DNA from: Campylobacterales bacterium | GTDB taxonomy: Bacteria > Campylobacterota > Campylobacteria > Campylobacterales > QNZT01 | Direction of reading: 5' to 3' | DNA: 58,766 bases | Assembly (NCBI GenBank): GCA_024278835.1 | Contig: JAJRSK010000057.1 | Span: 1-58,766 of the forward strand | Part shown: positions 16,454 to 50,343 of the stretch, piece after piece | How the letters are laid out: each line of letters begins with the position of its first letter | How positions within the stretch are numbered: the first letter of the stretch is position 1 | Notes under the pieces: generated by a model | The model's input: the letters and a program-made list of their open reading frames with translations, nothing else | The model's database searches: none | Told to the model about the DNA's origin: nothing | Translations under genes and position numbers: made by a program

Positions 16454-16563
16454 ATTCTTGCCAAAGGCAAAGCTTCAGTGAGAGGAATTTTCAAGGAGCT
16501 TTGCTTCTTGAAAAGGAGAAAATAAAATGAAAAAGATTACCTTTAAGGAGTTATCATGATAAC
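16454..16563. repeat. Intergenic module, copy E (weaker): GCAAAGCTTC...GGAGCTTTGC, ending in GTTATCATGATAAC at the pheA start
   Basis: About 100 bases between lysA and pheA hold GGCAAAGCTTC (16466-16476), then the inverted GGAGCTTTGCTTC (16496-16508), and end in a 14-bp perfect palindrome (16550-16563) whose centre is the pheA ATG. The AGCTTTGC part matches the GAGCAAAGCTC core of the other modules, but the AAGCTACG block is missing. Membership is less certain than for copies A-C. In C. jejuni, from memory, a hydrolase gene lies at this place. Confidence 0.45.
16527..16559 (+). CDS. Possible 10-codon upstream ORF coupled to pheA
   Basis: ATG at 16527 with a strong AAAAGGAG site 6-8 bases upstream opens a frame MKKITFKELS that stops at TGA, overlapping the pheA ATG (ATGA). 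It also carries the AAGGAG that serves pheA. Only one Phe codon is present, so classical attenuation by phenylalanine is unlikely. It may simply couple translation, or may be chance. There is no homology evidence. Confidence 0.3.
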   Translation: MKKITFKELS

Positions 16564-17629
16564 GTTGGATGACCTACGTAAAAGTATCAATGAAGTGGAT
16601 GATGAACTACTAGAACTATTAAATAAAAGAATGGAATTTGTCAAACAAGTAGGACATTTAAAACAGACAGATGGCTCAAGTATCTATCGTCCTGAAAGAG
16701 AGCGACAAATCATCCAGAGGCTTGCCTCTCAAAGTAAAGGTGCCCTCACAGAAAATGCTATCGAAGCACTCTTTATGGAAATCTTTGCCGTCAGTAGAAA
16801 CCTTGAACTTCCTGAGAAGATAGCTTACTTAGGCCCTGAAGGATCTTACACACATCAAGCCGCAGAAAGTCGTTTTGGTGCGATGAGTGCCTATCTACCG
16901 CTCAACTCTATAGAAGCTGTATTTAAAGTACTAGAAAACAAAGAAGCCAAGTATGGTGTTGTACCTATAGAGAACAATACAGAAGGTGCTGTTGGCGCAA
17001 CGCTTGACTGTTTAGGGAAGTATTCGGCGTTGATTATTGCTGAGTTGTATTTGAATATTCACCACTCATTTTCCACACTGAGCGAAGATTTAAAAGATAT
17101 CAAAGTTATTTACTCACATCCGCAAGGATACAACCAATGTAAAAATTTTTTAGAAGAGCATTTTCTACAAGATGTGGAATTTATCCCGACACGCTCGACG
17201 GCAGCAGCAGCAAAGCGTGCAAAAGAGGACAAACATGCAGCGGCTATCTGTTCACATATTGCAGCAAAGATACATGGATTGCCTATCCACTTTGAAAAGA
17301 TTGAAGACAATCTCGCAAACCGTACACGTTTTTTAATCCTAAGTGACTTTAAAAATGAGAAAGGGGCACAGGATAAAACGTCTATCCTTGCCCAAACAGA
17401 AGACAAACCGGGTGCACTTTTAGAGTTTTTACAATCTTTTGAAAACAACAAGATAAATCTCACCAAGATAGAATCAAGACCTATCAAAGACAAAGCCTTT
17501 AAATCACTCTTTTATATCGATTTTCAAGGGCATATTGATGATGAAAATATCCAAAATATTATCCAAAAATATCCTAACAAAATAAAATGGCTAGGTTCTT
17601 ATATCAAAGGAGATAAAGATGAAGTTTAA
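16556..17629 (+). CDS. pheA: Bifunctional chorismate mutase / prephenate dehydratase
   Basis: 357 residues: AroQ-type chorismate mutase (1-85; LDDLRKSINEVDDELLELLNKRMEFV), prephenate dehydratase (about 95-270; IAYLGPEGSYTHQAA, VVPIENNTEGAVGATLD, TRFLILSD) and a C-terminal ACT domain (about 280-355; DKPGALLEFLQSFENNKINLTKIESRP, the ESRP motif that binds Phe). It makes phenylpyruvate for phenylalanine. The ATG lies inside TATCATGATA with AAGGAG 5 bases upstream. The end overlaps hisC by 11 bases. Feedback inhibition by Phe is expected from the intact ACT motif. Confidence 0.95.
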   Translation: MITLDDLRKSINEVDDELLELLNKRMEFVKQVGHLKQTDGSSIYRPERERQIIQRLASQSKGALTENAIEALFMEIFAVSRNLELPEKIAYLGPEGSYTHQAAESRFGAMSAYLPLNSIEAVFKVLENKEAKYGVVPIENNTEGAVGATLDCLGKYSALIIAELYLNIHHSFSTLSEDLKDIKVIYSHPQGYNQCKNFLEEHFLQDVEFIPTRSTAAAAKRAKEDKHAAAICSHIAAKIHGLPIHFEKIEDNLANRTRFLILSDFKNEKGAQDKTSILAQTEDKPGALLEFLQSFENNKINLTKIESRPIKDKAFKSLFYIDFQGHIDDENIQNIIQKYPNKIKWLGSYIKGDKDEV

Positions 17630-25396: not shown

Positions 25397-25410
25397 CTTA
25401 TCATGATAAG
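25397..25410. repeat. TATCATGATA copy in 14-bp palindrome CTTATCATGATAAG
   Basis: Perfect 14-bp palindrome between the fusA stop and its terminator. The core is at 25399-25408. Member of the window-wide family. Confidence 0.9.
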
Positions 25411-28129: not shown

Positions 28130-28501
28130 TTACTTAGGTCTCTTAGTTCCGTATTTACTTCTTGCAACTTTTCTATTTGCAACACCGGCAGTATCAAGCG
28201 CACCACGGACGATGTGATATTTTACACCAGGTAAATCTTTTACCCTTCCACCTCTTACTAGAACGATTGAGTGTTCTTGAAGGTTATGACCCTCACCACC
28301 GATATATGATATTACTTCATAACCGCTCGTTAATCTAACTTTTGCAACTTTTCTTAAAGCTGAGTTTGGTTTTTTCGGAGTCGTAGTATAAACTCTCGTA
28401 CACACACCTCTTCTTTGAGGACATTTTTCAAGCGCTGGTGATTTTGATTTTTTAATCACACGTTTACGCTCTTTTCTTATCAATTGATTGATAGTAGGCA
28501 C
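28130..28501 (-). CDS. rpsL: 30S ribosomal protein S12
   Basis: 123 residues. S12 lies at the decoding centre. The motif [12 protein letters not shown] has lysine at residue 43, and [12 protein letters not shown] keeps the second conserved lysine; both are the streptomycin-sensitive wild-type residues. First gene of the rpsL-rpsG-fusA group. The 164 bases upstream, after the rpoC stop, hold the 30-bp palindrome and a 12-bp palindrome ACACCTAGGTGT (28532-28543), so rpsL may have its own promoter there. Confidence 0.98.
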
Positions 28502-28625
28502 ATTGTTTCCTTTACTAAATTTTTCTATTACACACCTAGGTGTATAAAGGTCGGCTATGATACTAAAAATGAGATTATGTTTTGCTTAATTTAAGGGATT
28601 ACTAATATATAGAGGAAATGTATTG

Positions 28626-28655
28626 TGTAGCAAGCTATCATGATAGCTTGCTACA
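28626..28655. repeat. 30-bp perfect palindrome centred on TATCATGATA, after rpoC
   Basis: Fifteen bases on each side match exactly: TGTAGCAAGCTATCA pairs with its reverse complement ending at 28655. The core TATCATGATA is at 28636-28645. It lies 10 bases past the rpoC stop. On RNA it would form a long, loopless stem-loop. There is no T-run on either side, so it may be an RNA-end stabiliser, a partial terminator or a protein site. Confidence 0.9.
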
Positions 28656-28665
28656 GATGAAAAAG

Positions 28666-37357
<8,692 letters not shown>

Positions 37358-39830: not shown

Positions 39831-39942
39831 TCTTGAATGAGAGCAAAGCACTCCTTCAATTCATTGTATCTGAAGCTACGCTTTTGGCGAGAACTTAGAC
39901 TTATTTATTCTATATATAACTATCTATCATGATAGTTATATA
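39831..39942. repeat. Intergenic module, copy B (nusG-rplK junction)
   Basis: CTTGAATGAGAGCAAAGC (39831 on), TCAATTCATTG, AAGCTACG and GGCGAGAA in the same order and spacing as copy A, then a broken palindrome at 39913-39942: TATATAAC, an extra TATC, TATCATGATA (39925-39934) and GTTATATA. The right arm runs into the nusG stop codon. The extra TATC looks like a slip or a duplication within the palindrome. Confidence 0.8.
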
Positions 39943-40689: not shown

Positions 40690-40766
40690 TGGCAGGGCAA
40701 GAGGGACTCGAACCCACAACAATCGGATTTGGAATCCGGAGCTCTACCAATTGGAGCTATTGCCCT
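40690..40766 (-). tRNA. tRNA-Trp (anticodon CCA)
   Basis: 77 bases with encoded CCA. Acceptor AGGGCAA/TTGCCCT, anticodon arm CCGGA-TTCCAAA-TCCGA (slightly imperfect outer pair), T arm GTTCGAGTCCC. It lies between rpmG and secE, a placement common in this phylum, and is probably cut from the long tuf transcript. Confidence 0.97.
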
Positions 40767-42355: not shown

Positions 42356-42430
<75 letters not shown>

Positions 42431-42547
42431 AAATTATTTACCCATATCAATTTTGTAACAAAAATATTATAGTGATTTTAAACGTAAGCAGTATCTATTA
42501 TTAAACAAGTAAAAGCGTTTAATAAGAACACAGCTCCCAGTTTAAAA

Positions 42548-42624
42548 TGGAGCGGGAAACCGGACTCGAACCGGCGACCCTCAGCTTGGAAGGCTGACGC
42601 TCTAGCCAACTGAGCTATTCCCGC
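42548..42624 (-). tRNA. tRNA-Gly (anticodon TCC)
   Basis: 77 bases with encoded CCA. Acceptor GCGGGAA/TTCCCGC, anticodon arm TCAGC-CTTCCAA-GCTGA. Third in the cluster in transcription order counted from tRNA-Thr(TGT). Confidence 0.97.
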
Positions 42625-42654
42625 ATCTTTAAAGTCTTAAAAAAGACTATTTAG

Positions 42655-42740
42655 TGGTGGTGAGTGAAGGATTCGAACCTTCGAAGGTAAAAACCAGCAG
42701 ATTTACAGTCTGCCCTCTTTGGCCGCTTGAGTAACTCACC
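42655..42740 (-). tRNA. tRNA-Tyr (anticodon GTA)
   Basis: 86 bases with encoded CCA and a long variable arm, as expected for bacterial tRNA-Tyr. Acceptor GGTGAGT/ACTCACC, anticodon arm GCAGA-CTGTAAA-TCTGC. Confidence 0.97.
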
Positions 42741-42787
42741 TTGGCTATCCACTTGAACATTTCTGGTCAAACACTGTTTCACAAATA

Positions 42788-42863
<76 letters not shown>

Positions 42864-48624: not shown

Positions 48625-49161
48625 ATGAAAAAACTCTCTATCATGATAGCACTCCTAGCGACGCTATTACTCACTGGCTGTATACAAAACATCTCTCAAA
48701 ATGGACTGACTGTGCGTATCCCCGCTTCTACTGTGACCTCTTCACTAGAAAGACAGTTTCCTATCAAACAGAGCTTTGCTTATGGAGATGTAGAACTCTC
48801 CAATCCCAAAGCCCTTCTTTCGCGGGGGAGTAACCGTGTAGTGACAGGCACTAGTATCGGATTTTCAAATGCCCTCATCCCTAAACAACAAGGTTCGCTT
48901 TATGTTTCTGGTGTACCGTTTTTTGATGCCCAGAGTGGTGCAGTATATCTAAGAGAGCCTATGATAGATAAGTTGGAATTTAATGGCTATAAACTCTCTA
49001 GCATGATTCAAGGACCTCTTAAAAGTGCTATCATCCCTATCATCAATGAGATTTTTAGAACGACACCCATTTATAAAATCAATCGCTCCTCTTTGCAAGG
49101 GTCATTTGTCAAAAATGTTGTCGTTGACAATGGAGAACTTTTAGTAACTTTTGGACTCTAA
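48625..49161 (+). CDS. DUF1439 (YceB-like) lipoprotein
   Basis: 178 residues. A lipoprotein signal peptide ends in the lipobox LLTGC (Cys 19). The mature part (QNGLTVRIPASTVTSSLERQFPIKQSFAYGDVELSNPKALL) resembles the DUF1439/YceB family, small outer-membrane-associated lipoproteins with a lipid-binding-like fold and unknown role. It overlaps the MFS gene tail to tail by 21 bases. TATCATGATA at 48639 falls in the signal peptide as IMI. Confidence 0.75.
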   Translation: MKKLSIMIALLATLLLTGCIQNISQNGLTVRIPASTVTSSLERQFPIKQSFAYGDVELSNPKALLSRGSNRVVTGTSIGFSNALIPKQQGSLYVSGVPFFDAQSGAVYLREPMIDKLEFNGYKLSSMIQGPLKSAIIPIINEIFRTTPIYKINRSSLQGSFVKNVVVDNGELLVTFGL

Positions 49162-50343
49162 AAACTCTCCAAATCCTCTCTTAAACCAGAGATAGTATCC
49201 ACCCGCTACGATAAAACCTATCCCAATCGTAGCGGTGATAAATGCCAAAGAAACCCCAAGCTTAAATGCCACCCCAATAAACATCGTTATCATGATAGAA
49301 ACCATCATAAATATCATATCATTGTACGCTACTACACGACCAAGATACGCTGCCTCTGTATGTGTCTGTATCAGCGTGTAGGTATATGACCATAGTGTCG
49401 TCGTAAAAAACCCTATAAAAAACATCATCCCCAAAGAGAGATAAAAACTATGTTCTATAAGCGCCCATATGAGTATCATGATACCTTGCAAAACAAAGAT
49501 ATAGTGTAGATTCAAGTGATTTACTATTTTGCCTATCAAGAGAGGACCAAACATCAACCCTACAGCGCGCATGGCATTGAGCCAACCGATAGCTAAAGGA
49601 ATCGCAATGATATGTTTATATTCAACATCGGTCAAGAGATTAATCAGCGCATCAAAACTTGTTAGTGCCACCGCAGCATGTATCATGATAAGGTGCAATA
49701 AGGCTTTGTGTCCTTTGAGGTAGAAAAATCCCTCTTTTATCAGCGTCGAGATGCTTTGTGTTGTCTCTTTTTTCATCTCAAACTTGATGGTACTAAATAT
49801 CATGATAGCCAGTAAAAACAGTCCACCATCTATCATGATAGTACTCTCTATGCCTAGTTTATCCACAGAGATACCACCCAAAGCCATTCCAAGGGCAAAG
49901 GTTACTGACCAGATGATAGAGTGAAGCTCATTGGCATATTTTAGAGTGTCTTTCTCCACGATCTGGGGCAAAAGTGACATCTCAGCTTGAAAAAACAGAG
50001 ACGCTGCAGTCATACGAACAAAGATAAAAAACATCAAAAGTGGCACTTGTGAGATATCCCCAATTGAGAGATAAAAAAGTGTCATCAAAAGTTCAACGAT
50101 AAGCATCATAATCATAAAACGTTTAAACTCAAACTTATCTACGATAGCACCACTAAGAGGCGCTAAAAGTGCGGGAAGTGCATACATGCTCACCACGATA
50201 GCATTGGTGATAGAATCTACACCAAACTGTAAAATCATCGTATAGATAGCCACATTGGAAAACCACGCACCAAAATAGGCAAAGAGTTGCACCAAACTTA
50301 GTCGTAGAATGAGAGGGTTTTGAAGAATCTTTTTATACATCAA
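49141..50343 (-). CDS. MFS transporter
   Basis: 400 residues, about 12 transmembrane helices. The loop between helices 2 and 3 reads PLSGAIVDKFEFKRF, an MFS-type A motif variant as in enterobactin-exporter-like (MFS_3) proteins. Substrate is unknown. The gene carries five exact copies of TATCATGATA within 560 bases (49288, 49474, 49681, 49798, 49831), each read as Ile-Met-Ile in membrane helices or next to them. Alternative starts MM/M differ by one residue. Confidence 0.8.
   Translation of the reverse strand: MMYKKILQNPLILRLSLVQLFAYFGAWFSNVAIYTMILQFGVDSITNAIVVSMYALPALLAPLSGAIVDKFEFKRFMIMMLIVELLMTLFYLSIGDISQVPLLMFFIFVRMTAASLFFQAEMSLLPQIVEKDTLKYANELHSIIWSVTFALGMALGGISVDKLGIESTIMIDGGLFLLAIMIFSTIKFEMKKETTQSISTLIKEGFFYLKGHKALLHLIMIHAAVALTSFDALINLLTDVEYKHIIAIPLAIGWLNAMRAVGLMFGPLLIGKIVNHLNLHYIFVLQGIMILIWALIEHSFYLSLGMMFFIGFFTTTLWSYTYTLIQTHTEAAYLGRVVAYNDMIFMMVSIMITMFIGVAFKLGVSLAFITATIGIGFIVAGGYYLWFKRGFGEFLESKSY

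Follow-up and report, generated by a model that had tools for sequence, protein, structure and literature searches.

A genus-confined iterated palindrome in Campylobacterota and the older stem-loop behind rpoC that carries it at its tip

The window analysed here, a 58,766-nucleotide stretch of a Campylobacterales genome (the source genome), holds behind rpoC a stem-loop whose tip is a copy of the 10-mer palindrome TATCATGATA. The stem-loop is old, with a structure that has been kept across the family; the motif reached its tip late. The motif itself is iterated throughout the genome, within genes as well as between them, and is a new element of the kind that includes HIP1 and the uptake sequences. 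An explanation in two layers, an old rpoBC stem-loop and an iterated palindrome co-opted in its tip, is probably the right one.

The stem-loop behind rpoC

A preliminary description of the window had pointed to a perfect 30-bp palindrome at 28626-28655 centred on TATCATGATA, and this is indeed present in the sequence (Table 1). It is the longest palindrome around any of the 1,127 TATCATGATA copies with full flanks (601 from the source genome and 526 from its genus mate); the next longest in the source genome is 22 bp, and the longest in the genus mate is 28 bp (L085:7612-7639). With arms shuffled among the 102 non-coding copies of the first source-genome sample, about 0.01 copies would be expected to show the 10 extra complementary pairs of the rpoC copy.

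The palindrome starts 10 nt past the rpoC stop codon and precedes rpsL, rpsG and the EF-G gene, all on the same strand. Matches to NCBIfam confirm rpoC, rpsL, rpsG and the genes for EF-G, L7/L12, L10 and NusG in the window. As RNA, 28626-28655 folds with -18.9 kcal/mol (z -5.1), so that one feature of an intrinsic terminator, a stable stem-loop behind a gene, is found at rpoC. Another, a T-run directly after the stem, is absent from the source-genome copy, and no terminator-like site was found within 28400-28800. Since the source copy has no T-run, termination there is not assured; the hairpin may act as a weak terminator or shield the 3' end.

The only known RNA families found in the window were tRNAs. 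Four tRNA genes (Thr, Gly, Tyr, Thr) lie on the minus strand at 42356-42863, ahead of the run of nusG, L10, L7/L12, rpoB and rpoC, and a tRNA-Trp is at 40690.

Table 1. Palindromes, motif copies and neighbouring genes in the window
Feature	Position	Strand	Remarks
Stem-loop behind rpoC	28626..28655	-	13-bp RNA stem, CAUG loop, tip is TATCATGATA
TATCATGATA copy in hairpin tip	28636..28645		At this place not in genus mate
rpoC	28666..33201	-	NCBIfam TIGR02386, 1683 bits
rpsL, next downstream gene	28130..28501	-	NCBIfam TIGR00981, 230 bits
14-bp palindrome behind EF-G gene	25397..25410		Core copy identical in genus mate
16-bp palindrome between L10 and L7/L12 genes	37979..37994		Gene calls and NCBIfam
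12-bp palindrome directly behind nusG	39924..39935		Gene calls and NCBIfam
14-bp palindrome across start codon of ORF 16556-17629	16550..16563		One core mismatch in genus mate
14-bp palindrome in spacer	54364..54377		Gene calls
Two copies 33 bp apart inside ORF 49141-50343	49798..49840

The age of the hairpin was judged from relatives. A scan for RpoC in named genomes yielded 34 loci, and at 29 of them the 70 nt after the rpoC stop codon were folded; L035 was too short, and L026, L039, L056 and L058 were truncated or lacked the rpoC end. A z score of -2 or below was obtained for 24 of the 29 relatives, the five without a significant fold being L031, L037, L047, L049 and L053. By contrast, TATCATGATA is found behind rpoC in none of the 29, genus mate included, and the hairpin arms vary between lineages. 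In Sulfurospirillum loci such as L030, L032 and L052 they consist of TAAGTTAAGG and its complement, followed by ACCTTTTTTT, and T-runs follow the stem in several relatives. The genus-mate locus (L050), where RpoC is 91% identical to that of the source genome, has a stem of different sequence but with the outermost bases, TGTA/TACA, in common; when the rpoC copy of the motif is aligned to it there are four mismatches.

Because the relatives fold with differing arms and without TATCATGATA, we consider the hairpin to have been kept as a structure and the motif to have come late. The comparison of arms among relatives that had been put forward as a check is therefore strongly positive at rpoC, where the stem-loop persists while its arms are replaced. 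It does not favour the outward growth of this palindrome from the 10-mer, as originally envisaged, since no relative has the motif there and most have the hairpin.

Abundance and distribution of the 10-mer

TATCATGATA occurs 29 times in the window, against 0.18 expected. According to gene calls made with a greedy longest-ORF heuristic, 20 of the 29 copies lie inside ORFs, seven in spacers and two across a start codon. With 1,549 copies over 2.51 Mb in the source genome, the element belongs among motifs which, like DUS/USS, number hundreds to thousands; the same letters reversed, also a palindrome, occur there only 7 times. A 646-kb sample contains 426 copies against 1.46 expected, about 290 times first-order expectation, while the next 10-bp palindrome is only some 6-fold over-represented. 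As with HIP-type elements, one palindrome thus stands far above others of its length. The count of ATCATGAT in the same sample is 516 compared with the 426 for TATCATGATA, which identifies the 10-mer as the unit. The symmetric flank on the 3' side of coding copies is G in 62% and A in 23%, giving YTATCATGATAR. Variants differing by one base are together about five times as frequent as expected and, in the manner of HIP-type elements, lie mostly at the two outer positions; the centre is avoided. Two other sequences are over-represented in the window and samples of the source genome and genus mate, GATATC at about 4 times and TATCGATA at about 6.7 times first-order expectation.

The genus mate (G001) has 1,009 copies. 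In overlapping surveys covering 59 relatives, 397 class genomes and 10 genomes from the genus of G056, the next highest counts were 166 (G056), 88 (G006), 66 (G021) and 49 (G019), and outside the family and G056 no surveyed genome exceeded 23. In 200-kb samples of G056 and G006, no 10-bp palindrome is more over-represented than the 10-mer (about 27-fold and about 51-fold, respectively). G056 belongs to another family of the order, and since its nine genus mates have 8-15 copies the rise there looks recent and separate. Several of the G021 copies are close together on a few contigs, which are probably foreign to this draft bin.

Along the chromosome the spacing of copies is random (CV 0.97 and 0.96), and even spacing for chromosome organisation was rejected. 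AT-rich stretches hold fewer copies, though the motif itself is AT-rich. The longest copy-free run of the source sample (L006:1-11619 on contig C1; 11.6 kb, 31% GC) looks like a surface-glycan locus, judging by the beginnings of its proteins, and is probably acquired DNA; the second longest is rpoBC itself.

Copies inside genes

The preliminary description overlooked that the majority of copies are intragenic. ORFs contain 315 of the 426 sampled copies, the others being in spacers or across ORF ends, so that the spread through the genome and within genes resembles that of HIP-type elements. Coding copies occur only in the two stop-free frames, and their density is below that of the spacers; the coding fractions of 0.92 and 0.94 are probably too high, given the heuristic gene calls.

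The two frames leave a clear mark on protein sequences. In the source genome, 277 of 283 instances of Ile-Met-Ile are encoded as ATC-ATG-ATA, whereas Ile codon use predicts 13%, and 200 of 206 instances of Tyr-His-Asp as TAT-CAT-GAT, with 43% predicted. The motif codons account likewise for 240 of 273 and 189 of 207 instances in the genus mate. The tripeptides are also frequent in themselves, at 105 and 77 per 100,000 residues respectively in the source genome, compared with 22 and 18 in G056 and 28 and 15 in G006 (220-kb samples). Since the tripeptides are enriched and their codons nearly fixed, the motif is driven at the DNA level and has put Ile-Met-Ile and Tyr-His-Asp into hundreds of proteins.

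Source genome and genus mate share 75% nucleotide identity over the 213 kb aligned, and the alignment takes in 143 of the 426 sampled sites. Sixty of these have the same letters in both genomes (39 of 107 coding, 21 of 36 non-coding), compared with 4.6% of coding and 8.9% of non-coding control 10-mers, taken from the neighbourhood in the same frame. The remaining 83 include the rpoC copy.

Palindrome arms, gene ends and close pairs

Other extended palindromes had been listed in the window. The lengths given for the 16-bp example and for the three of 14 bp (Table 1) were right. Within a supposedly broken palindrome at 39913-39942, the 12 bp at 39924-39935 are palindromic but the flanks imperfect, and a presumed spacer copy, that at 16550-16563, actually lies across a start codon. 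Such lengths are not unusual, palindromes of at least 14 bp being found around 55 of the 601 source-genome copies. For 949 copies (425 source, 524 genus mate), the pairing of left with right arm was compared with that obtained when arms were shuffled among copies, separately for coding and non-coding copies. Complementarity is frequent at the first flanking pair, where the motif tends to be preceded by C or T and followed by G or A, and is about as common as these base preferences predict. Beyond this first base, observed and shuffled arms pair equally and for that reason the 14-16-bp extensions are attributed to chance. A few palindromes exceed chance: the rpoC copy, the 28-bp palindrome in L085 and the cases of 20-22 bp, those of 22 bp being in L118, L099 and L211. 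Outward growth around single copies, which had been proposed for these palindromes generally, was accordingly rejected, there being no excess of arm pairing past the 12-mer.

Copies nevertheless have a distinct relationship with gene ends. Six of the seven spacer copies in the window lie no more than 29 nt downstream of a stop codon, and in the samples copies are densest between convergent genes, with 1.75 and 1.90 per kb against 0.79 and 0.85 between divergent ones. Pairs 15-30 bp apart number 24 in the source genome, where 6 are expected, and 11 in the genus mate, where 3.6 are expected; many close pairs sit just behind stop codons. With inner-arm pairing capped at 3 bp, the 25 non-coding pairs no more than 32 bp apart have inner arms pairing over 1.32 bp, against 0.63 bp when shuffled (sd 0.14), and the 11 coding pairs over 0.64 bp, against 0.38 bp (sd 0.18). 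Gene 3' ends with the motif have median folds of -12.7 and -13.5 kcal/mol, compared with -9.6 and -10.0 kcal/mol for those without, a difference partly owed to the motif's own palindromy. Pairs behind genes that form hairpins, a feature of DUS/USS, are thus found here too. Uptake sequences are described as occurring in pairs in terminators and in excess between convergent genes in PMC1852404. The suggested likeness to uptake-sequence pairs acting as terminators therefore holds up, with a three- to fourfold excess of pairs, many of them behind stops, and arms that pair.

Possible origins and functions

The two-layer explanation would run as follows. The stem-loop at 28626-28655 would end or protect the rpoBC transcript ahead of rpsL-rpsG-fusA, and in the source genome the tip of this existing structure has become a copy of the palindrome iterated in the genus. 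A cellular protein would recognise YTATCATGATAR in double-stranded form, and the motif would be driven into every tolerant stretch, inside genes and out, the copies behind genes being co-opted into hairpins, singly as a tip or in pairs. If DNA of kin carrying the site were favoured, sites could spread by molecular drive. The likeliest of the readings, in our opinion, is that the motif serves as a signal of self in DNA uptake or recombination, although this can be put forward only tentatively. ComEC, found in source genome and genus mate, permits natural transformation, but is widespread, indeed near-universal, and its presence says little. Against uptake through a hypothetical receptor stands the symmetry of the motif, the known uptake sequences being, to our knowledge, all non-palindromic and oriented. 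A broader claim, that YTATCATGATAR is at once a palindromic uptake or recombination signal and a HIP-type palindrome, and that such elements arise repeatedly, without MutL, and rewrite proteins, is possible but doubtful. Phages as carriers were rejected: among 98 IMG/VR stretches retrieved with two patterns, none has more than 4 copies, and five of them compared with the genome samples gave no blastn match at 1e-10.

A rather unlikely alternative, modelled on HIP1, would have an orphan adenine methyltransferase mark the CATG of each site, with repair or replication that reads the mark making and keeping the sites. A solitary D12-type enzyme, classed by PADLOC as type II or orphan, is encoded at L211:12916-13926 (source genome, contig C77). 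It adjoins an ORF resembling exonuclease III, none of the ORFs nearby is a restriction gene, and the enzyme is widespread in the order. Its putative specificity, judging by its relatives, is presumably CATG, which is the centre of the motif. The enzyme is present in all four enriched genomes (source, genus mate, G006 and G056) and the one-base variants avoid the centre, as they do in HIP1 according to PMC4390886. However, of the 28 other genomes searched, 14 have an enzyme of the same clade and yet no strong motif enrichment, and 235 of the 397 class genomes have a match at 1e-10. As sole cause a CATG-type methyltransferase was therefore rejected, though its participation may yet be required. 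Away from the motif, CATG shows no enrichment, at 0.83 and 0.64 of expectation. A mismatch-repair ratchet has been proposed for HIP1, as set out in PMC4390886, but MutL was found in neither source genome nor genus mate, so that the MutL-dependent ratchet cannot run there as described; the search gave weak, sub-threshold matches in G056 and G008. Random spacing, too, is not the saturation that a ratchet would give. Another candidate, N6_N4_Mtase (PF01555), was rejected, since the genus mate gave no match and the source genome only two, both sub-threshold and frame-broken. A hypothetical dimeric nucleoid or chromosome-segregation protein, with sites selected for chromosome-wide spread, would suit the symmetry of the 12-bp site, its tolerant rim and the keeping of sites in place; yet the spacing is not even, and neither the excess behind genes nor the hairpin-forming pairs are predicted, which makes this unlikely. 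The view that each long palindrome grew locally around a single copy, or was selected separately as a terminator, draws support from the few palindromes that exceed chance and from the pairing of inner arms in close pairs, but the shuffled-arm comparison and the greater age of the rpoC hairpin render it very unlikely. Finally, it is hardly credible that codon or base composition, or the assembly process, produced a motif so far above first-order expectation, present in two separately assembled genomes and denser in spacers than in ORFs.

Comparison with known systems

HIP1 has long been an unexplained oddity of cyanobacteria, and only in two families are amplified uptake sequences well known. 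Among open-licence papers we found no relevant report of the iterated 10-mer or its two 12-mer forms, the matches being unrelated by title or start of abstract, nor any report of a DNA uptake sequence in Sulfurospirillum or of over-represented palindromes in Epsilonproteobacteria. The element shares the testable features of HIP1-type palindromes, with a methyltransferase link as a possible further one, and departs from uptake sequences in one feature, being a palindrome.

The rpoC hairpin itself is comparable to the intrinsic terminators of Sulfurospirillum, which have a long stem at the same place, ahead of rpsL in most loci; the source genome differs in its arms, in the iterated motif at the tip and in having no T-run. 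In Campylobacter jejuni, DNA uptake involves a methylated RAATTY site and a methyltransferase that helps to mark the cell's own DNA. This system belongs to the same phylum and likewise has palindromic recognition, but its site is six bases long, degenerate and naturally frequent, and we know of no case of its being an amplified repeat.

DUS/USS of Neisseriaceae and Pasteurellaceae, as described in PMC1852404 and PMC1939737, likewise comprise about a thousand copies or more, mostly genic, with one sharp core motif and hairpin-forming close pairs behind genes. The motif described here is, in contrast, a perfect palindrome with symmetric flanks, and its uptake role is putative; if real, it would be an amplified uptake signal outside these two families. 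HIP1 (GCGATCGC) and the alternate HIPs of cyanobacteria share with it, according to PMC4390886, a genome-wide distribution inside genes and outside, a density of hundreds per megabase, variants that differ by one base chiefly at the ends and an orphan methyltransferase that may read the centre. The differences are that the present methyltransferase does not clearly track the motif and that MutL was not found in the source genome or genus mate, which argues against the mismatch-repair model as a general one. Moreover, the element is limited to a single genus, apart from weak and separate rises elsewhere, and this two-species branch of Campylobacterota, together with its nearly motif-free close relatives, offers a before-and-after comparison of which gene came with the motif. 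Unlike HIP1, it is an AT-rich 10-mer enriched behind genes and in hairpin pairs: a DNA-level signal that shapes protein sequence and that has also been co-opted into an older hairpin.
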